Source: a virus. From it: DNA of 33,879 nt. Below the pieces are notes generated by a model, which saw only the letters and a list, made by a program, of their open reading frames with translations, was not told the DNA's origin and did not search any database. Below are positions 889 to 18,553 of the stretch, in pieces. The DNA lies in IMG/VR virus record IMGVR_UViG_3300029268_002491, positions 1 through 33,879 of that record. One strand, given 5' to 3'. Position 1 is the first letter of the stretch. Each line of letters begins with the position of its first letter. The position numbers were made by a program, and so were the translations under genes.

Positions 889-1149
889 ATGCCTGTTTTA
901 TTAACCGAAATACAGGTTATAGGGATTAAAGATGCCTGTAAATTATTGAATATTGGCAGTCATAAGTTATATGATTTAGTGAAAGCCGGGAAGTTAAGGG
1001 CTGTTAATTTTGGGACTAACGGAAAGACTTTGCTAAAATTCAAAGTATGTGACATTATTGCGTTTCAGGATAATAATTATTATACCCCGCAAACATTCCC
1101 TGCTGAGTTAAATCTTAAAGAAATGGCAAATAGAATATTTCAGAAATGA
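889..1149 (+). CDS. Excisionase/MerR-type helix-turn-helix protein
   Basis: 86 aa, four bases after the previous stop. Residues about 9-60 follow the excisionase-family winged-helix pattern: IKDACKLLNIGSHKLYDLVKAGKL is the HTH, followed by a conserved-type strand and a DIIAF end. In phages such proteins act as recombination directionality factors or small regulators. No integrase is in the window, so a regulatory role is equally possible. Confidence 0.65.
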   Translation: MPVLLTEIQVIGIKDACKLLNIGSHKLYDLVKAGKLRAVNFGTNGKTLLKFKVCDIIAFQDNNYYTPQTFPAELNLKEMANRIFQK

Positions 1150-1475: not shown

Positions 1476-1560
1476 TATTATATATATATAAAATAATTAT
1501 TATATAATAATATAATAATAATATTATTATATATCAGTATAATATAGGGGATTTTGCTCT
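1476..1560. other. Extremely AT-rich segment
   Basis: Roughly 1476-1550 is almost purely A and T, built of TATA/ATTATTA runs, and opens the gene-free stretch 1476-2053. Such a tract can be an easily melted origin-like element or a spacer between transcription units. No iterons or DnaA boxes were recognised, so no origin is called. Confidence 0.4.
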
Positions 1561-1648
1561 CAAAACAAACAAATAATAATTTATTTTTGCCACCCCTTAA
1601 AAAACAAAGGAAAACAAAGGATTTATATAAAAAAATATAATAAATATT

Positions 1649-1682
1649 ATATAAAAGATTTTTTTATTAATATCTTTTATAT
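1649..1682. repeat. AT-rich inverted repeat (11-bp arms)
   Basis: Arms 1649-1659 and 1672-1682 are perfect reverse complements (core ATAAAAGAT / ATCTTTTAT) around a 12-nt loop. The pairs are nearly all A-T and no clean U tract follows, so it is a weak terminator at best; it may be DNA-level cruciform or protein-binding structure. Confidence 0.4.
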
Positions 1683-1954
1683 TATATTTAATAAACAAAT
1701 TTATAATACTTTTTATAAAATAGTTCTTCGACTCACTGACTGACTTATGGTAAAACGGACAATGTGCCGCTTTTGTCATGCATCGCAAACTTAAGTGCCC
1801 CTCAAGCCCCGCATTTTTCTGGTTTTAATCGTATCAGCTAAAAACTCTTATTAAGGACGTTAATTCGGGTTTTAGCAGTTAATTAATTCTGGTTTATGAG
1901 GATTCAAGCGAAATTTCTATTTCGTGGAAGGGCGAAAAAGGCTTGATAAGCAAA

Positions 1955-2018
1955 TGTAACTGATGAGTCTTAATAAAGACGAAACGGGGCGGTTCATAAC
2001 AGACCGCTTCGTCTTACA
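1955..2018 (+). ncRNA. Hammerhead ribozyme, type I topology
   Basis: All catalytic-core elements occur in order. Stem I 5' strand TGTAA is 1955-1959. CTGATGA is 1960-1966. Stem II pairs GTCTT (1967-1971) with AAGAC (1976-1980) around loop AATA. GAA is 1981-1983. Stem III (1984-1993 with 2003-2012) is 10 continuous pairs, two of them G-U, closed by a 9-nt loop. The cleavage site GTC has its C at 2013. Stem I 3' strand TTACA is 2014-2018. Self-cleavage would fall between 2013 and 2014, leaving a 5'-OH leader 40 nt before the ATG at 2054. Stem I beyond 5 bp is uncertain: a small hairpin GCTT-GAT-AAGC (1941-1951) and an A5/T5 match (1935-1939 with 2024-2028) could form the outer stem and the contact partner for loop II. 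Activity is inferred from the motif. Confidence 0.85.
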
Positions 2019-2053
2019 AACAATTTTTAACAAACACACAAAGGAATAACAAA

Positions 2054-2263
2054 ATGGAAAACTCAACTAATTATTACCCCCCGAAAGTACAATTAACCGG
2101 TACGCATGGTAATGTCTTTGCATTAATTGGGGAATGTAAAGAGGCAATGAGAAAGGCTAATGTGCCGGATAAAGTCATTTCCGAAATGACAGCTAAAGTT
2201 TTCGCCTGCGGATCTTACCATGAGGCGCTAAAGGTTTTATGTTCTTACTGTGATGTTTCATAA
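2054..2263 (+). CDS. Conserved small phage protein
   Basis: 69 aa, first gene after the ribozyme, with AAAGGAA upstream. The pattern VQLTGTHGNVFALIGECKEAM, then NVPDKVISE and a C-terminal helix, resembles a small family found in many phages and plasmids (LxGxDGNxFxLxGxxxxAMRRAG pattern), function unknown. Probably a compact alpha/beta protein. Family recognition is from memory of the pattern; no function is assigned. Confidence 0.65.
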   Translation: MENSTNYYPPKVQLTGTHGNVFALIGECKEAMRKANVPDKVISEMTAKVFACGSYHEALKVLCSYCDVS

Positions 2264-2284
2264 CAAACATAAGGAATTAACACC

Positions 2285-2479
2285 ATGAAAAAAGAATTAG
2301 AAAAACTCAGCGAAATTGAATCTATGCTTAGCCTTAAGATTGAATCTTACCAGCTATCTGCAAAACAGACAAAAAGCTCAAAAAAGCAGTCGATGTATTT
2401 TCACCTCATCCGGGGTCTTGAGCATGTCCGCGAGGAATTGAGATACACGATTAAAATAACTCGCGATTATATTAAATAA
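2285..2479 (+). CDS. Small helical hypothetical protein
   Basis: 64 aa with a good ribosome site (AAGGAATTAACACC before ATG). Composition is lysine/glutamate-rich and almost wholly helical (KKELEKLSEIESMLSLKIES), suggesting a small coiled coil. No family recognised. Confidence 0.6.
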   Translation: MKKELEKLSEIESMLSLKIESYQLSAKQTKSSKKQSMYFHLIRGLEHVREELRYTIKITRDYIK

Positions 2480-2502
2480 CACAAATGGAAAGGGTGGACA
2501 CA

Positions 2503-2919
2503 ATGGCAAATTATACAATTGATCATATAGAACTTCGATTTTTTATTAATTTCAGTTTTGAAAAGATACTCGCAAAATATGGGGTAGAAAAGTTTTATTC
2601 AGAGGTTTTCAGCAGCACATATCTTCAGATAAGCATAATGCCCGATCATCCGTATTCCGTTTGCCCGGTAATATGTTTCGGTTATTCTCCGCCAATTGAT
2701 GAAAAAAAAAGCACATTGAAACTCGATCCCTTTTATATTCCGGGCACTTTTCCCCCCCCGACTAAAGTGACTGAGACATTAAAAGCTTATGAGGGAATAG
2801 CAAAATTAATATTAGCCGATGAGGGGGGCGAACTTAATTTAATAACACTATTAAGATTTGGGCTTGACTACTTTCATAAACGCGCCCAATATCTAAAAGA
2901 AAATGAATATTTATCATAA
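2503..2919 (+). CDS. Hypothetical protein with homopolymer-rich gene
   Basis: 138 aa from the ATG at 2503, chosen because GGGTGG lies just upstream; an ATG at 2485 would add six residues but lacks a ribosome site. No known domain. Features are an aromatic N-terminal half, a CFGYSPPIDEK turn and GTFPPPTKV in the middle. The gene contains an A9 run (2702-2710) and a C8 run (2752-2759), both prone to slippage. It sits in the early operon between small unknown genes and the DUF932 gene. Confidence 0.6.
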   Translation: MANYTIDHIELRFFINFSFEKILAKYGVEKFYSEVFSSTYLQISIMPDHPYSVCPVICFGYSPPIDEKKSTLKLDPFYIPGTFPPPTKVTETLKAYEGIAKLILADEGGELNLITLLRFGLDYFHKRAQYLKENEYLS

Positions 2920-2937
2920 ACACAAAGGAAAAATATA

Positions 2938-3774
2938 ATGACAAACACAATCACACCAAAAGGCCTGACCGATTATTACTTTCCCATTAAGGAAAGGGAT
3001 ATATCATACCTATCAACTAATGATGGTAATTATTCATACTTACAAGAAGATGATAACGTCTCCGGAATATGGCAAAAGGCTACAGCCTATAAGGGAATTG
3101 TTAGAGAGGACACCGAGGAACTTATTTCTGTGGTGGGTAAAAATTATCAATTAATTCCCAACCAACAACTAATTGAAGCACTCTTGGAAGCATTGGACAA
3201 AACCGATATAAAATATAATGAACCTACTCATGGCCTAATCGGACAACTGCATAATTATGTCGATAACAATAAAATGAAACTAACTTTAACATTTCCCGAA
3301 TTAAAAGTGGTGGATGACACGACTGAGGGGATTCACATGAGTTTAATTATTCAAAACAGCTATGATATGTCTGAAAGGATTAAGCTAATATTTGGAATGG
3401 TGCGGTTAATATGCACCAACGGCGCAATAGTTTTTTTACAAGAAAAAAACAAATTCAACCAAACATATAAACATACTGCCGGGTTTGATCTTGACGCTGT
3501 TAAGAGGCAATTTGACAGTATTTATATGCAAATCCCTATGATTAATGAACGCATTAATATTCTCCGCTCTCTTGATAATCCACAAAGCATTTTTGATTCA
3601 GTAATGAATGTGGAAAATGATTTTGGTAAGCGAGCATCAGACTTTGTAAAAGAAAATGATCCGGAAACAATGTGGGCATTATATAATCTACTGACTTATT
3701 ACGTTACTCATTTTGTTGCAGTAAAACAGCACACCGCATATTTCCACGCCATTTCTAACCAATTCCGATTATAG
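2938..3774 (+). CDS. DUF932 / phage-plasmid-like protein
   Basis: 278 aa. Family signature stretches: WQKATAYKGIVREDTEELISVVGKNY (about 46-70), NQQLIEAL, and GMVRLICTNGAIV (about 152-164), which match the DUF932/TIGR03299 phage-plasmid family, usually 250-350 aa. The biochemical role is not established; members often neighbour phage recombination genes, as here. AAAGGA precedes the ATG. Confidence 0.75.
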   Translation: MTNTITPKGLTDYYFPIKERDISYLSTNDGNYSYLQEDDNVSGIWQKATAYKGIVREDTEELISVVGKNYQLIPNQQLIEALLEALDKTDIKYNEPTHGLIGQLHNYVDNNKMKLTLTFPELKVVDDTTEGIHMSLIIQNSYDMSERIKLIFGMVRLICTNGAIVFLQEKNKFNQTYKHTAGFDLDAVKRQFDSIYMQIPMINERINILRSLDNPQSIFDSVMNVENDFGKRASDFVKENDPETMWALYNLLTYYVTHFVAVKQHTAYFHAISNQFRL

Positions 3775-3783
3775 GAGCATGCA

Positions 3784-4032
3784 ATGAATAAAATAACAAT
3801 TCCCTATTCAATCAGGGTTTCCGTTTATCATGTGAAACTATTCATTAATGAGACAATGGAAACCCTATCGGAAAAAACATTTGACACCTTTAACGAGGCT
3901 TATGAATTTGCAACTTGGCTGAGAGAGGCTAAAGAGGTAAGCAATAAAAATATTGATGTTCGGATTTCCGTGCGAAGCAATATTAGATTACTTGAAAGAG
4001 AAATAAGCATACCACAAACATTACTTACATAA
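3784..4032 (+). CDS. Hypothetical protein
   Basis: 82 aa, 9 nt after the DUF932 gene, with GGAGCATGCA before ATG. Alternating strands and one amphipathic helix (FNEAYEFATWLREAKEV) suggest a small alpha/beta protein. No family recognised. A strong hairpin follows its stop. Confidence 0.6.
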   Translation: MNKITIPYSIRVSVYHVKLFINETMETLSEKTFDTFNEAYEFATWLREAKEVSNKNIDVRISVRSNIRLLEREISIPQTLLT

Positions 4033-4037
4033 TTAAA

Positions 4038-4062
4038 AACCCCCGTCTCTACAACGGGGGTT
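4038..4062. terminator. Strong GC hairpin, T tract only on the minus side
   Basis: AACCCCCGT (4038-4046) pairs perfectly with ACGGGGGTT (4054-4062), loop 7 nt. Rightward RNA has no U tract after it, whereas leftward RNA reads straight into TTTTTAATT. It therefore looks like a terminator of antisense transcription, or a stability/attenuation hairpin in the rightward operon. Confidence 0.55.
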
Positions 4063-4073
4063 ACAAACACAAA

Positions 4074-4088
4074 GGTGGACAAACCACC
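4074..4088 (+). promoter_or_regulatory. Small hairpin masking a ribosome-site-like motif
   Basis: GGTGG (4074-4078) pairs with CCACC (4084-4088) around ACAAA, burying the AAAGG of a copy of the recurring ACAAACACAAAGG leader. No gene starts right after this copy; the next ATG (4118) uses its own AGGAAAG. It may be a relic leader of a lost gene. Confidence 0.3.
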
Positions 4089-4117
4089 AAAACAAACACC
4101 GAAATATAGGAAAGAAA

Positions 4118-4330
4118 ATGACAAATACAAAGAAAAAAATGAAAGTGTATGGAAAATATACCGGTTCAAACACATTATTTCATAATACTTGCTGGTATTT
4201 GCCTCAAATAAAGATTTGCAATGAGACTTTGAGCGAGTATGGCTTCAGGGTTGGTGATGAGTTACAAGTAAATTATTCAGTAAATCACCTGTTAATAGTC
4301 AGAAAGGAAAATACAAATGCAGACAGATAA
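4118..4330 (+). CDS. SymE/AbrB-like small protein
   Basis: 70 aa. The C-terminal half PQIKICNETLSEYGFRVGDELQVNYSVNHLLIVRK follows the SymE-type swapped-hairpin pattern (PxIxIxGxWLxxxGFxxGDxVxVxxxxxxLxI). SymE is an SOS-linked type I toxin in E. coli; phage relatives have no settled role. The start is set by AGGAAAGAAA just upstream. It overlaps the next gene by 14 nt. Toxin activity is not claimed. Confidence 0.55.
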   Translation: MTNTKKKMKVYGKYTGSNTLFHNTCWYLPQIKICNETLSEYGFRVGDELQVNYSVNHLLIVRKENTNADR

Positions 4331-4679
4331 CGAATTTAAGAATATGGTGGATAACCATATAACCAAACAAATCAATCAGCAATATCCCCGCTTCTGCTAT
4401 TGTGACAGATGCGGGGATGCAATTAAAATTGATGTAGAGATCACAGGTTTCCGGGAAATATGTTCTGCGTGCCTTGAAATGTTCCGCAAAGACCTCGCAT
4501 TACTGGGGGCGGAGTTTGGCTTAGATGACAATTTCCACTTGGATACTGATAGCAAACACCAAAATTTGCCTTGGAATGAAATTTCCGGCTTTCACATAGC
4601 GGAAGTGATTTCAAGATTCTATTATAGAACGACATTTATTAACGCCTTAAACACGGCAAAACAAACACAAAAAGGATAA
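4317..4679 (+). CDS. Small zinc-ribbon-like protein
   Basis: 120 aa. FCYCDRCGDAI (about residues 27-37) and CSACLEMF (about 52-59) supply two CxxC pairs suited to one zinc ion. The C-terminal half is helical and aromatic. No family recognised. It begins inside the end of the SymE-like gene, which suggests coupled translation. Nucleic-acid binding is only a guess from the ribbon. Confidence 0.6.
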   Translation: MQTDNEFKNMVDNHITKQINQQYPRFCYCDRCGDAIKIDVEITGFREICSACLEMFRKDLALLGAEFGLDDNFHLDTDSKHQNLPWNEISGFHIAEVISRFYYRTTFINALNTAKQTQKG

Positions 4680-4683
4680 TATC

Positions 4684-5409
4684 ATGGAAAGAACAACTGA
4701 AAAATTTGATAACAGCGTGCAAACTAAAAATGCAGATGAGTTTATACAGGATATTCAAGTAATTGAATTAAACCTATTAATAGAGACCGCAGTTAGTGAG
4801 AGTAAAAAAATTGTTGTCTTGACATTGGAATCGGTTAATGAGTCTTCAGCATACATTAAACAATTTTCCAAGTTAGAAAAACGAATTGACGAGGTTCGCA
4901 AAAGCTATACCGAACCATTAGACAGGCGGAAAAAAGAAATTATGGAATCCTTTGATAAATTAAAAGTCATTTTTAGTGCTGAAAAACTAAGGTTAGAAGC
5001 TGACACGAAAAAATGGCTTATAAGACAAAGGGAAAATGCTGAGAAAAAAGCACAGATTGAACGCAAACAAGCGGAGGAAAAGGCGCTTTTGGAAGCAATT
5101 GAAAAGGAATCGCGACTGAAAGCCGAGGCAGTGCAAAGAGGAAAAGACCCGGACATGATTACCGTTGAACCGGCAATTATTCCCGAGACAATTATTGAAG
5201 CTCCAAAGTTATCAACTTTCAACAGTAGCGGGATTGGGACAATGAAAGTATCACAATGGCGAATAACAAACATTAATCAAGTGCCACGAGGGTATATGAT
5301 GCTGAATGAATCGCTTGTAACAAGCTACCGCAAATCAAGGGGGGTTGATGCTATGAGTGATATTCCGGGAATAGAGTTTTATTTCACCGAAACACTTAGG
5401 CGGGGTTAA
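4684..5409 (+). CDS. Coiled-coil phage protein (DUF1351-like)
   Basis: 241 aa. Residues about 55-150 form a long charged coiled coil (RIDEVRKSYTEPLDRRKKEI onward, then an EKKAQIERKQAEEKALLEA segment). The C-terminal about 60 residues (WRITNINQVPRGYMMLNESL, ending IPGIEFYFTE) match the compact C-terminal part common to DUF1351-type phage proteins. These usually sit beside exonuclease and annealing genes, as here; the role is probably in recombination but unproven. One base separates it from the nuclease gene. Confidence 0.6.
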   Translation: MERTTEKFDNSVQTKNADEFIQDIQVIELNLLIETAVSESKKIVVLTLESVNESSAYIKQFSKLEKRIDEVRKSYTEPLDRRKKEIMESFDKLKVIFSAEKLRLEADTKKWLIRQRENAEKKAQIERKQAEEKALLEAIEKESRLKAEAVQRGKDPDMITVEPAIIPETIIEAPKLSTFNSSGIGTMKVSQWRITNINQVPRGYMMLNESLVTSYRKSRGVDAMSDIPGIEFYFTETLRRG

Positions 5410-5410
5410 T

Positions 5411-6199
5411 ATGAAAATAGAATATCTGAGAGCAAGCCAAATAAACTTGTATAGAGAATGTAGTGCATACTTCTATTTCTTGAATTTCACCGACATTAAG
5501 ACAGCTAACAAGCCGTCTCTTGCTTTTGGTTCTGCTATTCACAGCACTCTTGAAAAGAATTTCCGCCAAAAAATCGAATCACGACAAGATTTAACCATTG
5601 CAGAGAGCAAGTACATTTTTTCTAATGAATTAGGAACGCAATTAAACAATGTTGAAAGATGTGATCTGATAGGTTATGATTCCCAAAGGGCATTAGAGGC
5701 AACCGGACTTGATCTGATTGAACTCTATCAAAGGACACACGCGTATCGAATACAGCCAAAGAGAGTTGAGGAAAACGTGCAAATAAAACTAAAGGGTTAT
5801 CCCTATGGGTTATCTGGAACGGTGGATTTACTCGACGATGACAACAATTTAATTGATCATAAAACATCAGGAAGGGATTATAAACAAATATCTGAGTCAT
5901 ACCGGATTCAGGTAGGTGGTGCATACCCCATATTAATGGAAGCGCTGTTAGGCGAGCCTATTAATTCAGCCAGAATTGACTACATGATACGTAAATCTGA
6001 AAATAATGATCGCGTTAAGGTTCGACCGATTGCGGTGGATATTGACAAGAAATATTTCTTTTCGGTATTTGAACAGGTAAGCAAAGGTATTGAGGCTGAT
6101 ATATTTTCCCCATGCCGGGATTATATGTTTTGCTCACAAAAATACTGTAAATTTCATGACCACTGCGTTAAGCAATTCGGTGGCGTAGTTAAAAAATAA
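5411..6199 (+). CDS. Cas4/RecB-type PD-(D/E)XK exonuclease with Fe-S cysteines
   Basis: 262 aa. Motifs in order: Cys17 in LYRECSAYF; GSAIHSTLEK (motif I His, about 41-50); GTVDLLDDDNNLIDHKTS with the catalytic Asp and D-x-K pair (about 136-154); YRIQVGGAYPILMEAL (QxxxY motif); and a C-terminal cluster with CSQKYCKFHDHC. One N-terminal plus three C-terminal cysteines is the Cas4/AddB arrangement for a 4Fe-4S cluster. Expected activity is DNA end resection for recombination with the neighbouring proteins. All key residues appear intact. Confidence 0.85.
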   Translation: MKIEYLRASQINLYRECSAYFYFLNFTDIKTANKPSLAFGSAIHSTLEKNFRQKIESRQDLTIAESKYIFSNELGTQLNNVERCDLIGYDSQRALEATGLDLIELYQRTHAYRIQPKRVEENVQIKLKGYPYGLSGTVDLLDDDNNLIDHKTSGRDYKQISESYRIQVGGAYPILMEALLGEPINSARIDYMIRKSENNDRVKVRPIAVDIDKKYFFSVFEQVSKGIEADIFSPCRDYMFCSQKYCKFHDHCVKQFGGVVKK

Positions 6200-6229
6200 T
6201 ATCAACAAACCAAAGGAAGGAATCCTAAG

Positions 6230-7318
6230 ATGAATGAAATAACCAACTTAGATAAGGTGGTAGAGATTGAGGAAATACAATCCAACTCTAATTTTACCCC
6301 CTTAATGCAAACAAAATCCGCTTATTCAACGGCGGTACAGGTCATAAAACCCCGGCACTTCCCTAACATCATTAGAAGATGTGAAGAGGAAGCATCCATT
6401 GGCGGAGATGACTTTTATTATTCATGGCGACAGGGAAAGGAAATAATCGAAGGCGTTTCAATTCAGGGGGCGCTTGCAATTGCCAGAAATTGGGGCAATA
6501 CGGCAGTTGAGGTGACTGTTGAAGAAACGCCAACAGCATATTTATTCAAAGGCTGCTTTATTGATCTTGAAACAGGCTTTAATCTTGTAAGACCTTACCG
6601 ACAGAATAAACAATCACCCAAAAAGAAAGACGGGACTGATATTTACACCGGCGAAAGAGGTACAGATATTGTATTCCAGATCGGTGCATCTAAAGCGATG
6701 AGGAACGTGGTATTAAATGCTATTCCTAAATGGCTCACAGAGAAGGTTCTGGACAAGGCAAAGGCAAATATTACAGCCAAGATTTCACAATTAATGAAAG
6801 AAGGCAAAGCAGTTCCTATGGTGGTTTCCAAACTTGCGGAACTTGGTATACCATTGACTATTGTTGAAACAGATTTCGGGAAAAAAGAGGGCTGGGATAT
6901 TGTTAAATTGGTACAAATTTCGGGAGCAATTAAGGGAATAAAGGACGGTACTGAATCCGCTGAAAACTTTTTCCCCTCTTTAAGAGCGCAACCCGCTGAG
7001 CAGAAAGAGATAGTTGTTGAATTACAAAGAAAAACGCCTGATGAATTTATAACTGAACCAAAAAGCAAAAAGGAATCAAAGACTCCCCCGGTGAAACCGA
7101 CAAAGAATGTGCCGGTAGAGTCAAATGGGGTTGTTGAACCCGAAAATCACTTTGTAGACAGGCTTGCGGGAATAATAAAGACAGCAACGGCGACCAAAAC
7201 AAGAGCTGAATTAAAGGAATTTATCAGGGCAAATTCAAGCAATTTAGCCAATCTGAATGAAACCGAATGGACTACATTCCAAGAGGCAATAACAGAACAT
7301 GAAACAAAAATATCTTAG
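6230..7318 (+). CDS. Candidate recombination protein (possible annealing partner)
   Basis: 362 aa, 30 nt after the exonuclease, with AAGGAAGG upstream. Residues about 20-185 form a globular domain with MQTKSAYSTAVQVIKPRHFP, GDDFYYSWRQG, GVSIQGALAIARNWGN and a Gly-Ala-Ser-Lys helix (GASKAMRNVVLNAIPKWL). This pattern recurs in phage proteins annotated as hypothetical. The C-terminal third is low-complexity and basic, then helical. Its pairing with a 5'-3'-type exonuclease suggests a single-strand annealing protein of the RecT/Erf kind; that is inference from position only. Confidence 0.5.
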   Translation: MNEITNLDKVVEIEEIQSNSNFTPLMQTKSAYSTAVQVIKPRHFPNIIRRCEEEASIGGDDFYYSWRQGKEIIEGVSIQGALAIARNWGNTAVEVTVEETPTAYLFKGCFIDLETGFNLVRPYRQNKQSPKKKDGTDIYTGERGTDIVFQIGASKAMRNVVLNAIPKWLTEKVLDKAKANITAKISQLMKEGKAVPMVVSKLAELGIPLTIVETDFGKKEGWDIVKLVQISGAIKGIKDGTESAENFFPSLRAQPAEQKEIVVELQRKTPDEFITEPKSKKESKTPPVKPTKNVPVESNGVVEPENHFVDRLAGIIKTATATKTRAELKEFIRANSSNLANLNETEWTTFQEAITEHETKIS

Positions 7319-7325
7319 AGGGAAA

Positions 7326-7757
7326 ATGAACAAAGTTAATGAGTTTCTAAGATATAGGGATGTTATCGGAGAGGAAGAGGCAACCCGTTTATTCCTCAGA
7401 AAACAACCCAAGAAAATAATCAACAATGGCGGGGGTATATCCCCCGCCGATTTATTCACACAGGCAGAACCGAAAACCGACTTAGGAATGGCTCGAAAAA
7501 TTGATGCTTTTTATAGCGAGCCGGTTCAAAAGAGTTTGCCTCGGAGGCAGGCACAGGTTTATGAGGCAATAAAAATTCTTGGCGTTGCAAATGACAACAT
7601 GATTTCCGAAGCAACAGGATTACCCACATCTACAGTTATCCCACGCCGAAAGGAATTAATGAAAATTGGCATGGTAGAAGCAATTTCAGACGAAATAGTG
7701 AGCAAATATTCGGGTATTATAGTAACACATTATAGAGCAACAAATCACAGCAATTAA
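7326..7757 (+). CDS. Winged-helix DNA-binding protein
   Basis: 143 aa from ATG 7326, chosen because GAGGG lies just upstream; an ATG at 7299 would add nine residues without a site. Residues about 75-140 are a winged HTH: QAQVYEAIKILGVANDNMIS, ATGLPTSTVIPRRKELMKIG as turn and recognition helix, then a strand-rich wing. It probably binds DNA as a regulator or replication accessory. The N-terminal half is unfamiliar. Confidence 0.6.
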   Translation: MNKVNEFLRYRDVIGEEEATRLFLRKQPKKIINNGGGISPADLFTQAEPKTDLGMARKIDAFYSEPVQKSLPRRQAQVYEAIKILGVANDNMISEATGLPTSTVIPRRKELMKIGMVEAISDEIVSKYSGIIVTHYRATNHSN

Positions 7758-7777
7758 TCAATATAAAGGATAGAAAA

Positions 7778-7945
7778 ATGAATAACACAATAGTTAGGGA
7801 ACATCAAATTGTGGTAAAAATCAATTTGGAAATGTACAAAAAGTTAAAATTTCTGGCTAAAAAAGAAGATAGAAGCGTATCAAGTTTTCTGAGGGTGCTA
7901 ATTGCCAACAAATTACAGGACAGCACGAATGAAAAAGGAAATTGA
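7778..7945 (+). CDS. Small ribbon-helix-helix protein
   Basis: 55 aa, with AAAGGATAG before ATG. The sequence HQIVVKINLEMYKKLKFLA (strand and helix 1), then KKEDRSVSSFLRVLIANKLQ (turn and helix 2), is a typical CopG/Arc layout. Its 3' end overlaps the next gene by 17 nt, pointing to translational coupling. Likely a transcriptional regulator of the early genes; targets unknown. Confidence 0.7.
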   Translation: MNNTIVREHQIVVKINLEMYKKLKFLAKKEDRSVSSFLRVLIANKLQDSTNEKGN

Positions 7946-8756
7946 ATATTATTTTAGTCATGATGCCAACGCAAAAGATGACCCAAAATGCGTTATGCTG
8001 CTGGAACAATTAGGCTGTGAGGGTTATGGAATTTTCTGGATACTTGTTGAAACCTTACGCAAACAGCCTAATTTCAAATACCCAATTAACTTATTACCGG
8101 CAATCGCAAGGCGATATAATACCACTTTTGAAAAGGTTAAAGCTGTTGTATTCAGTTATGGCCTGTTTATGGTGGAAAATGATGAGTTTTTCTACTCAGA
8201 AAGTCTGATTGAAAGGATGCAATATTACCTTGAGCGAGCGCAATTAAAGTCAATGGGCGGGAAAAAGGGCATGGAATCACGTTGGAAAAACATAACAGAA
8301 AACAAAGGTGTTATAACAGAGCCATTACGGGCACATAACACAGTTATAACTGAGTTATTACAGACGGATAACATAGATATAACTAACGATAACTATAAAA
8401 TAAAACAAAATAAAATAAAACAAAAGAATAATATAATAATCCCTAATTCACTTCTTCATGTTCCCTATTTTGAAGATTCATGGAATGAATGGATTAAATA
8501 CAGAAAGGAAATTAAAAAACCACTTATAGAAACAACACAAACAAAGCAACTAAAAGAATTGTCTGATTGGTTACAGGCCGGGCATGATGTTCTGGCGATT
8601 ATTGATCAGTCGATTAAACGAGGTTGGCAAGGATTATTCACCCTAAACATTGGATATAATAATGGAAACAATCAAAAAAACGGCTATAAATTTGATCCAG
8701 AGAAGCATAACAAGCGAGAGGCAGAACTTGAAGCAATGCACCGAGAACGGGATTAA
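7929..8756 (+). CDS. DUF4373 (Lin1244/Lin1753-type) replication protein
   Basis: 275 aa from ATG 7929, preceded by an AGGA; an upstream ATG at 7902 is possible but runs through the previous gene. Residues about 1-110 match the Lin1244/Lin1753 N-terminal domain of phage replisome organizers: EIEYYFSHDANAKDDPK, LGCEGYGIFWILVETLR and a serine/glycine linker. The middle is a polar N/K-rich linker, then a C-terminal domain (FEDSWNEWIKYRKEIKK). In the family these start phage DNA replication. Coding-quality sequence continues in the same frame beyond its TAA at 8754-8756 (see findings). Confidence 0.75.
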   Translation: MKKEIEYYFSHDANAKDDPKCVMLLEQLGCEGYGIFWILVETLRKQPNFKYPINLLPAIARRYNTTFEKVKAVVFSYGLFMVENDEFFYSESLIERMQYYLERAQLKSMGGKKGMESRWKNITENKGVITEPLRAHNTVITELLQTDNIDITNDNYKIKQNKIKQKNNIIIPNSLLHVPYFEDSWNEWIKYRKEIKKPLIETTQTKQLKELSDWLQAGHDVLAIIDQSIKRGWQGLFTLNIGYNNGNNQKNGYKFDPEKHNKREAELEAMHRERD

Positions 8757-15330: not shown

Positions 15331-15514
15331 CTTCCGTTTCTATCTTCTCTTTTGTAACCCATTCCCCCGTTTTTGGATCTTCATAAGTTATCCAAGCTGT
15401 TATTGTTCCAAATGCCTTTTTGGCAAATATTCTTGCCCTCTTTAACTCCTTTGCGCGTTCCTCATCAGTAAGTGTATCCACCATTTCGGTTGGAACTTTA
15501 TCTTTTTCTGCCAT
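15323..15514 (-). CDS. Small hypothetical protein in head block
   Basis: 63 aa, between MuF and the gpG-like gene, overlapping both by a base or a few. Highly charged N-terminus (TLTDEERAKELKRARIFA), then a strand-rich end (TITAWITYEDPKTGEWVTK). No family recognised; the position suggests a structural or assembly accessory. Confidence 0.6.
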   Translation of the reverse strand: MAEKDKVPTEMVDTLTDEERAKELKRARIFAKKAFGTITAWITYEDPKTGEWVTKEKIETEDE

Positions 15515-17118
15515 TATTTTTTTCCTTTCAAGTAGTCCGCTAAAATTTGTCTATCCCTTGAGCCTTTATCCATATCCATTATTCCAAACCAGTCCATATT
15601 CCAGTTATTATTCCTAATAATGTCTTCTCCGGTAATTGTTATAACTTTTCCAGAATTAAGTTTTATTTCATGCTCAAAGGTAATAAAATCTTGAGGAGTC
15701 CGCAAGGCTGATAATTTAGCTAAATATTCCTTTGTAATGCTATTCTGCTTATCCAATGGTATGCTTTTCCCCATAAGTCCATTCCTTAAGTTGTCTTTTG
15801 CAATATTCTTAAAGGATTTTTTGAAATTATTATTATTCTCTTTATACTCTGGATCAAAGTCAAATCCGAATTTACCCCATGTTGCTTTTCCACCGTCTAA
15901 GCCGGCATGTACTTTAATATTTTGAACGCCAAGAGAATCATAGAATGGAATTGTGTTGCTAAACAACCCCTTTGCCAAACCACCACCTTGATAAGGCTGA
16001 GCTATGGTGAAAAGAGAGTTTGTCACAGTTAGTTTTCCATTCTCCCGGGCTATGGTTCTCTCAATAGTTCCAATTCCCTTGCTTTTTCCCTGCAAATCTG
16101 TATAAATAATGTCACCGATAATTTTTGCATTATCGGGTGTTAAGCTGTTAGCAAAGTATCGGTAATTTGGTTTTATTGAGAATCCGTCTTGATTGACTTT
16201 AATCCCATTGGCGTTTTCGCTCTTGGTAAACTTGTTAAACTTAAAGGCTTGTTCGAATTTCTCAACTGTATATTTACTTTCATCATTACCAAACAAATGC
16301 CTTAAGTTATCCGCAATTATACCCGCTTCATCTGGCCACCCCTCTGCTAACTTCGAGGCGAGAGAGGTTTCGGGGGGCGGAATTATCTTTTTAACCTTAT
16401 TAAATTGGTCAAATATATCCCTATCATAATTTTTAGGATCGGGAGTAAAGGGTGTTTTAGCGGGATTATAGTTCCACTCTTCGGGTATGCTGACATTGGG
16501 AATGCCTCTGTTTTTTGTGTAGCCAAACTCGATAGCCTCTGCCTCTGTAAGGGCATCCACCGTACACCTGCAACCCCAACCATTAGGCGGATAATATTTA
16601 TCCCAAAACGGGTGATTATATATATATACCTTATTATGAAGTTGTGCATGGGTGTCTCTTGTGTTTGAATCCATAATTGCTCTATAACGCCAATATGGCC
16701 TTTCACCTGAGTTATCCTTCATAGCATTATAATGACCTACTGCATAAGCAACATTCAGGTTTGTTTCATAAATTATCCGTAGTCTATTGGGTGAACCGAG
16801 TTGCACTTTTTTCGGAAGTCCTGTTTCAGGGCTTATGATTTCTTGTTTTCCCCACCAACCTAAATTTGTAAGATTTCCCTGCAAACCCTTCTTAAAATCC
16901 GCATAAGTAATTCCTTCCTTAATAGATTTTTCCACACTATCACGTAATGTCTGTAATACGTCCATGTTCATCGCCTTTGCTACTGTAAACGCTTGGTGAT
17001 GTTGTTCTTTCCAGACATCTTGCCAATTATAAGATATTTCCATACCCTTGCGGGTAAAATATTCAACTATCTTTTCAGGTGGTAAGGTAAAGAGAAAACT
17101 ATAATCAATTTCAGCCAT
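15514..17118 (-). CDS. MuF-type head protein with GNAT-like C-terminal domain
   Basis: 534 aa from the ATG at 17118 (ATGGCTGA overlaps the portal stop); a TTG at 17136 would add six residues. Residues about 110-185 are the MuF/SPP1 gp7 domain: RIIYETNLNVAYAVGHY, RAIMDSNTRDTHAQLHNKV and a YYPPNGWGCRC end. Residues about 310-425 are an extra domain: TDLQGKSKGIGTIERTI, then PYQGGGLAKGLF, matching the acetyl-CoA loop pattern Q-x-x-G-x-A, FYDSLGVQNIKVHAG and WGKFGFDFDPE. MuF proteins enter the capsid and many carry C-terminal enzyme or toxin domains. GNAT assignment is from motif pattern only; the substrate is unknown. Confidence 0.75.
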   Translation of the reverse strand: MAEIDYSFLFTLPPEKIVEYFTRKGMEISYNWQDVWKEQHHQAFTVAKAMNMDVLQTLRDSVEKSIKEGITYADFKKGLQGNLTNLGWWGKQEIISPETGLPKKVQLGSPNRLRIIYETNLNVAYAVGHYNAMKDNSGERPYWRYRAIMDSNTRDTHAQLHNKVYIYNHPFWDKYYPPNGWGCRCTVDALTEAEAIEFGYTKNRGIPNVSIPEEWNYNPAKTPFTPDPKNYDRDIFDQFNKVKKIIPPPETSLASKLAEGWPDEAGIIADNLRHLFGNDESKYTVEKFEQAFKFNKFTKSENANGIKVNQDGFSIKPNYRYFANSLTPDNAKIIGDIIYTDLQGKSKGIGTIERTIARENGKLTVTNSLFTIAQPYQGGGLAKGLFSNTIPFYDSLGVQNIKVHAGLDGGKATWGKFGFDFDPEYKENNNNFKKSFKNIAKDNLRNGLMGKSIPLDKQNSITKEYLAKLSALRTPQDFITFEHEIKLNSGKVITITGEDIIRNNNWNMDWFGIMDMDKGSRDRQILADYLKGKK

Positions 17119-18553
17119 TATTGTCACGACCCTCAATAGAGGCTATGAACATTGCCTTTGCCAATATGTCCTCTAATTTATCCGTAGTCATTTCAGGGAA
17201 CATATCTGCGAGTTTATCATTCATTTCCGCAAACGTTCCCGATCCATTGACCAAATCAATAACAGGCTTTAATATTTTCGCCATTTGCAATTGAAGCAGT
17301 TTATCGGGTATTGAATTAAGTATTTTGTCGATCGGCTTGCTGTCTGCTTCCTTAAATTGTGTTGGCGGAGTTTGGGATGGTGGTGTTATGGCAATATCAA
17401 AGTCATTATCTTTAAGGTTATAATTTTGTATGTAATAATCTTTGCTAAATTTAACGCCTTGAGTTACAAGAATAGCATCTCTTTCTGCAAGGGTTTTATC
17501 AACATTATCCTGCTCATATTGGGAGAACTGGGGGGCGGGAATATCTGCACCAAAATTAACATCCACGATTAGGCGTATTAGTTTGTTAAAAAATGATGTT
17601 ATTATTTCGGTATCTGCTATATTAAGTTTGCCCTCCCCGGTGTACTGGGTATCTGCTGCAGCATAAGAGCCGTGTTCCCCCACCTCTACCGTATTAACAA
17701 CCGTAAGAACTGCCTTACTGATTTCATAATTACAGAAGTTAAGAAGACCCTTATATAGGTCAGCACTACCAACACGACTACCGGCATCAAGCAAGTTTAC
17801 GCTTTCATCATCATTCAGTACAATTACCCCGTCTTGTACCATATTGTTCAAAGAGCGGGCAAGTGCAGTACGCTGATCTTTCTTTGCTGTTTTGGGTACT
17901 TTTCCAATTGCTTGAGGCATTCCGTATTTCTCAGTCATCTTAAGCCAAAACTTCATTCCCCCCTTTTTGAATATTACTGGCCAAAAGACTTTTTTCGCCA
18001 CCCTATCACCATAAGGATTAAGATAATCTGCTTCCTGTGTTGCAACAAGAAACAACATAGGGTCAGCTAATATCCCTGTAAGGTTCTTTGTGCGTATTCT
18101 TAATTGATTCTTATTATCAAAAAAGAAATATTCAGGTGGTCTGTCCTCAATACGAGGCAGTCTATAACCCCCCTTAATTTCCCAATGGAGTACAAAAGGC
18201 TGATAACCATAATAAATACAATCTAATAATTTCTTACATATATTATTAAGGTTAGGAAGTCCATCAAAATAATCTTGGATAAATTTCAGCACAATATCCG
18301 AAGCATTTTTTTGTTCAATCTCCCATTCCATAGAGGTTACACCGCTTTTTCTTTTGGTGATTACTGCCGAAAGGTGTGAATCAATAAGCAAATTCCGGTA
18401 AGAGCTTATATCAATACCCTGAGATGTTAATATCGGATCAGGGTCAGGTAATTCCGTTAACCAACCATAATAGGATAATTGATATTCCCTATTAACATAT
18501 TCCTGCTGAGAGATATTGTCTAAGCCGTCAGTATAATCGCGTGTTCTAACCAT
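17111..18553 (-). CDS. Portal protein, DUF935 (Mu gp29-like)
   Basis: 480 aa. Characteristic stretches: RNLLIDSHLSAVITKRKSGV, SMEWEIEQKNASDIVLKFIQ, YGMPQAIGKVPKTAKKD, and EVGEHGSYAAADTQYTGEGK with NIADTEIITSFFNKLI. It forms the dodecameric DNA channel of the head and pairs with MuF. It is the first gene of the leftward block, with AGAAGGAT before ATG, and lies opposite in direction to TerL, unusual for this family. Confidence 0.9.
   Translation of the reverse strand: MVRTRDYTDGLDNISQQEYVNREYQLSYYGWLTELPDPDPILTSQGIDISSYRNLLIDSHLSAVITKRKSGVTSMEWEIEQKNASDIVLKFIQDYFDGLPNLNNICKKLLDCIYYGYQPFVLHWEIKGGYRLPRIEDRPPEYFFFDNKNQLRIRTKNLTGILADPMLFLVATQEADYLNPYGDRVAKKVFWPVIFKKGGMKFWLKMTEKYGMPQAIGKVPKTAKKDQRTALARSLNNMVQDGVIVLNDDESVNLLDAGSRVGSADLYKGLLNFCNYEISKAVLTVVNTVEVGEHGSYAAADTQYTGEGKLNIADTEIITSFFNKLIRLIVDVNFGADIPAPQFSQYEQDNVDKTLAERDAILVTQGVKFSKDYYIQNYNLKDNDFDIAITPPSQTPPTQFKEADSKPIDKILNSIPDKLLQLQMAKILKPVIDLVNGSGTFAEMNDKLADMFPEMTTDKLEDILAKAMFIASIEGRDNNG

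Follow-up and report, generated by a model that had tools for sequence, protein, structure and literature searches.

The stretch of DNA analysed here (the window) is a virus record of IMG/VR, 33,879 bases long, whose completeness is not established. Its left end carries a leftward repressor gene and then a rightward HTH_17 gene. Small rightward ORFs also precede the ribozyme described below, on the same strand. Among the upstream ORFs of 60 codons or more, the nearest stops at position 1475, about 480 nt from the ribozyme, and the interval between them is poor in genes and rich in A and T. Within it, positions 1476–1720 are rich in palindromes, with 9–20% G+C, and precede the early genes; they possibly correspond to a promoter or replication region. 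After the ribozyme, the genes run rightward and comprise small genes, a DUF932 gene, an exonuclease-like gene, a gene in the RecT position and replication-initiation genes. A promoter scan of the window gave 17 consensus matches as compared to 12.9 expected, that is chance level, and no promoter was placed. The terminator scan of the window was also at chance level. Further to the right, portal and minor head/DNA pilot genes occupy the minus strand at 15514–18553 within a plus-strand packaging and head region. With the terminase before it and the protease and major head protein after it, this block looks as if it had been inverted.

Table 1. Features of the ribozyme region, in window coordinates
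Feature	Position	Strand or direction	Details	Evidence
Repressor gene with Peptidase_S24 domain	1-588	leftward
HTH_17 gene	889..1149	+	last domain-supported gene upstream of the ribozyme	PF12728, E 2.1e-7
Gene-poor, AT-rich stretch	~1476-1935		G+C down to 9%
Whole motif, type I hammerhead ribozyme	1955..2018	+		R1 covariance model, 43.9 bits, E 3.5e-11; motif scan; minimum-energy fold
Stem I, 5′ strand	1955..1959	+	UGUAA, open end of the ribozyme; pairs with UUACA 2014-2018	sequence, fold
Catalytic core, C3 to A9	1960..1966	+	CUGAUGA	sequence
Stem II hairpin, 5 bp	1967..1980	+	1967-1971 with 1976-1980; loop AAUA 1972-1975	sequence
Core, G12 to A14	1981..1983	+	GAA	sequence
Stem III hairpin, 10-11 bp	1984..2012	+	from A15.1-U16.1 to the loop; 1984-1993 with 2003-2012	sequence
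Predicted cleavage site	2013/2014	+	after C17 at 2013; predicted 5′-OH end at 2014	set by the hammerhead core
Predicted leader of the 3′ product, 40 nt	2014..2053	+	stem I 3′ strand 2014-2018; Shine-Dalgarno AAGGA 2041-2045	sequence
First gene past the ribozyme, 69 aa, function unknown	2054..2263	+	PHROG 1933	PHROG 1933, E 1.1e-15
DUF932 gene, fourth past the ribozyme	2938..3774	+		PF06067, E 1.3e-13

Read directly on the plus strand, positions 1955–2018 are UGUAA CUGAUGA GUCUU AAUA AAGAC GAA ACGGGGCGGU UCAUAACAG ACCGCUUCGU C UUACA. All the hammerhead invariants are present: C3-U4-G5-A6-N7-G8-A9, G12-A13-A14, the A15.1-U16.1 pair (A1984-U2012) and H17 (C2013). Three helices surround the core, of 5, 5 and 10–11 bp for stems I, II and III respectively, the eleventh pair of stem III being a possible G-U between 1994 and 2002. 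All three appear in the minimum-energy fold. Loops close stems II and III and stem I is open, as in the type I topology. A sequence-only reading of the window had described the invariant core nucleotides in order, a stem II of 5 bp, a stem III of 10 bp with two G-U pairs, a stem I of at least 5 bp and a cleavage site 40 nt before the ATG (at 2054). Direct reading confirmed each of these points. The limits first proposed, 1935–2028, enclose the motif and are slightly wide, the evidence covering 1955–2018.

The unconstrained minimum-energy fold of positions 1936–2036 is the full hammerhead, with a z-score of -2.98, and none of 200 shuffled sequences was as stable. When stems II, III and I of at least 5, 8 and 4 bp were demanded, the window yielded one site and 300 Markov-simulated windows yielded none. 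Depending on the context, pair probability was 0.5–0.99 for stem II and 0.6–1.0 for stem III. That of stem I was only 0.1–0.3 in most longer contexts, a value in the middle of the range of 149 phage type I hammerheads. By hand, stem I can be prolonged past a 5x5 internal loop; the minimum-energy fold did not favour this extension, which was not retained.

The covariance check proposed in the sequence-only reading gave a divided answer. At gathering scores, Rfam returned no match in the window. In a permissive search, the sole hammerhead model listed was Hammerhead_HH9 (RF02275), with 25.7 bits (E 0.023) against a cut-off of 52. Over 1955–2018 this model aligns with the motif in the core and in stems I and II, whereas stem III is longer and the outer stem I of the model (positions 1–13 and 60–77) is unmatched. 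On the other hand, a covariance model built from 34 type I hammerheads of other phages, with the window excluded (R1), located exactly 1955–2018 with an E-value of 3.5e-11, the next best place in the window having an E-value of 0.53. Applied to 21 other loci, R1 found 44 hammerheads at E<0.01, mostly outside its training set. At gathering scores, Rfam 15 missed every clear hammerhead of five control loci (L015, L102, L108, L109 and L117). Failing the Rfam cut-off therefore says little here, and pipelines relying on gathering scores would miss clear phage hammerheads as well. The survey described below suggests that many phage hammerheads are hidden by these cut-offs. The covariation in our alignment A3 stems from other phages' hammerheads; since its rows were picked by pairing, this evidence is partly circular.

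The score under the Rfam cut-off is what could speak for a chance resemblance to a hammerhead. We consider such a coincidence extremely improbable in view of the E-value obtained with the independent R1 model, of the absence of any comparable site in the 300 null windows and of a location that fits the pattern of phage hammerheads; the Rfam cut-offs also report no hammerhead in the five control loci. Overall, core, stems, fold and R1 score strongly support the type I identity first proposed, and positions 1955–2018 are a genuine hammerhead, a new example of an already known kind.

In order to place the motif among its likes, viral sequences were surveyed with a pattern that specified nothing beyond the core and the three outer pairs of stem II; at least 120 viral stretches matched. 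Among the matches listed, a full type I or type III hammerhead was present in 110 of 121 loci, the window's own included, and at least 156 distinct hammerheads were counted in at least 102 viral loci (123 of type I, 33 of type III). Still among the matches listed, 150 of these 156 lie outside same-strand ORFs and 125 come after a same-strand ORF, with a median gap of 19 nt. The median distance from the cut to the next ATG is 42 nt (129 phage cases among the matches listed) and 37 nt for type I, as compared to 40 nt in the window. The window hammerhead is likewise outside coding sequence and shortly before a start codon. It is not directly behind a same-strand stop codon, its 480-nt upstream gap exceeding the 90th percentile (295 nt) of the phage hammerheads among the matches listed. 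The placement just before an early gene, considered of real interest in the sequence-only reading, turned out to be the usual one: most examined phage hammerheads also sit a few tens of nucleotides before start codons.

Our preferred reading is that the phage is temperate and tailed and that the motif in its early region is an active type I hammerhead, which would cut the early transcript before position 2054. We give it a probability of about 0.7, with self-cleavage attributed by analogy to the hammerhead family. A rightward RNA crossing 1955–2018 would fold, the 2′-OH of C2013 would attack the next phosphate and the chain would be cut at 2013/2014. The upstream piece, made of the immunity region and/or the AT-rich 1476–1935 stretch, would end in the ribozyme, its 3′ terminus bearing a 2′,3′-cyclic phosphate. 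Downstream, the early mRNA from 2054 would start with a 5′-OH and a 40-nt leader nearly free of structure that carries the ribosome-binding site. Both end chemistries are those expected of the family. The leader, AACAAACACACAAAGGAATAACAAA-ATG, has AAGGA 8 nt before the ATG and resembles the leaders of other genes of this phage. Cutting would separate the coding part of the early mRNA from the RNA that precedes it and would provide a short, uniform leader whose end is disfavoured by 5′-monophosphate-sensing decay. Separation of the early mRNA together with a uniform 5′-OH leader is the probable use, with a presumed benefit to the phage.

RNA with a 5′-OH is a poor substrate for the 5′-sensing mode of RNase E (PMC4191395), and hammerhead ends are apparently not rephosphorylated in E. 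coli (unpublished remark in PMC4191395). Direct entry of RNase E without a 5′ phosphate is common (PMC4191395). A stabilising effect is therefore not certain, because the enzyme can enter directly. If cutting does shield the early mRNA from host decay, the phage would possess a simple RNA-based takeover device. Since there is one ribozyme, one predicted cut and one 40-nt leader, the effect of cutting is testable by a single core mutation.

That the ribozyme belongs to an early-operon leader, as the sequence-only reading had it, is plausible from gene order, with promoter matches at chance level. Because same-strand genes lie upstream, it may just as well lie between cistrons of a longer transcript and split this into two groups. 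An active hammerhead could then work mainly between cistrons: a long transcript from the immunity region (before 703) would be cut, the HTH_17 group would be split from the early operon and the upstream RNA would be protected or released, with no leader trimming. This has a substantial probability, somewhat short of an even chance. Besides the same-strand genes upstream, it draws on the 125 of 156 phage hammerheads (among the matches listed) that follow a same-strand stop codon with a median gap of 19 nt, and on the proposal of Perreault et al. 2011 (PMC3088659) that long phage transcripts are cut into gene-length mRNAs. It fits poorly with the gap of about 480 nt to the upstream ORF, above the 90th percentile of 295 nt, and with the upstream stretch, whose high A+T content and lack of genes might befit a leader driven by its own promoter.

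We also considered that a ligand, or ribosomes on a short ORF, might control cutting, which would open the start of the gene at 2054. A 16-codon ORF at 1896–1946 (MRIQAKFLFRGRAKKA) indeed stops 8 nt before stem I; it lacks a Shine-Dalgarno sequence and may be there by chance. The start region 2038–2060 is already mostly unpaired before cutting (0.62–0.81) and reaches 0.88 in the folded 3′ product. Because it is open both before and after the cut, no hidden ribosome-binding site would be freed, and processing is therefore a simpler reading than an on-switch. As there is also no Shine-Dalgarno sequence before 1896 and no extra domain attached to the ribozyme, we regard such regulation as improbable.

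The lengths of the stems were then compared. Among phage type I hammerheads (loci L002–L152), a 6-bp stem I mostly goes with a stem II hairpin of 12–13 nt, and a 5-bp stem I with one of 17–19 nt. This tight coupling of lengths suggests two distinct classes of loop-loop docking in phage hammerheads. In the window, stem I has 5 bp and the stem II hairpin 14 nt, a rare arrangement matched only by that of locus L060 among the surveyed phage hammerheads. The contact between loops I and II that is needed for speed was not identified in the window hammerhead, and there was no clear pseudoknot.

Close relatives of the phage were searched for in several ways. BLASTN of positions 1500–6200 against 50,697 phage records gave no match, and the 69-aa and DUF932 proteins had no relatives in viral contigs. 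No hammerhead was found by R1 in six distant relatives, some of them fragments, recovered through the RecT-position protein (34–48% identity; L122–L130), nor was any detected in distant capsid relatives (L133–L140). No support was obtained for hammerheads being directly associated with PHROG 1933: the one relative of this family compared in full (L131) has none, and most known members of the family are mycobacteriophage genes, outside the comparison. Because no near relative of the phage was found, the case for selection on the window hammerhead rests on its intact core only.

These observations bear on whether the motif may be a relic or a slow hammerhead, with the right core and stems, lacking a working tertiary contact and hardly cutting in the cell. 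Length changes can lower the rate by orders of magnitude (Perreault 2011, PMC3088659), and the rare combination of stem I and stem II lengths, the lack of a clear pseudoknot, the single copy and the failure to detect the motif in distant relatives all point in this direction. Yet the core bases and the pairs next to them are all intact although the region is free to drift, and the stability of stem I is mid-range among phage hammerheads. We consider a relic or slow ribozyme unlikely, and retain an active one as the preferred reading.

Perreault et al. 2011 (PMC3088659) described hundreds of bacterial hammerheads of three types, many of them intergenic in prophages, and proposed that they process phage transcripts into gene-length mRNAs. 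Three arrays were shown to cleave in vitro, and one of them, the A. tumefaciens set beside ardA, did so in E. coli (PMC3088659). The window hammerhead shares with these its core, its open stem I, its intergenic position in a phage and its proposed role in transcript processing. It differs by being a single copy rather than part of a cluster, by the long gene-free stretch upstream and by its rare stem I and stem II lengths. Why phages keep hammerheads has been an open question since 2011.

The genes following phage hammerheads were also examined. Recognisable among 76 downstream proteins were early or auxiliary ones, namely DUF932 (4), ArdC-type anti-restriction proteins (2), RNA polymerase, MazG and primase, and no structural PHROG family was among the 25 listed. 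DUF932 genes directly follow hammerheads in four divergent phages (L022, L076, L108 and L110), and ArdC anti-restriction genes in two loci (L074 and L092). In contrast, 76 other genes of the same loci, taken as a control, included no DUF932 and did include head, terminase and tail proteins. These counts suggest a preference of phage hammerheads for early and anti-restriction genes. The bias is a lead only, because minimum lengths differ between the two samples (70 and 100 aa, respectively), the families are the 25 listed and the numbers are small. More tentatively, type I and type III phage hammerheads may form a general early-mRNA processing system. They would lie tens of nucleotides before the starts of early genes of the anti-restriction type (DUF932, ArdC) and would give uniform 5′-OH leaders outside host 5′-phosphate-dependent decay, the window representing a case with one copy, by which a long AT-rich leader would be trimmed. 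We hold this generalisation to be rather doubtful at present.

Several IMG/VR contigs carry many hammerheads (L145, L149 and L108). As in the window, these are of type I and located tens of nucleotides before small early-type genes, and in L108 one of them directly precedes a DUF932 gene. Unlike the window with its single copy, these contigs have eight to about fifteen hammerheads each, between most gene pairs. In L145 (IMGVR_UViG_3300030382_001968), about fifteen type I hammerheads are spread over positions 2293–8606, one between most adjoining small genes. The cuts usually fall 20–27 nt before the next ATG, possibly an RNA-processing layout of a whole operon.
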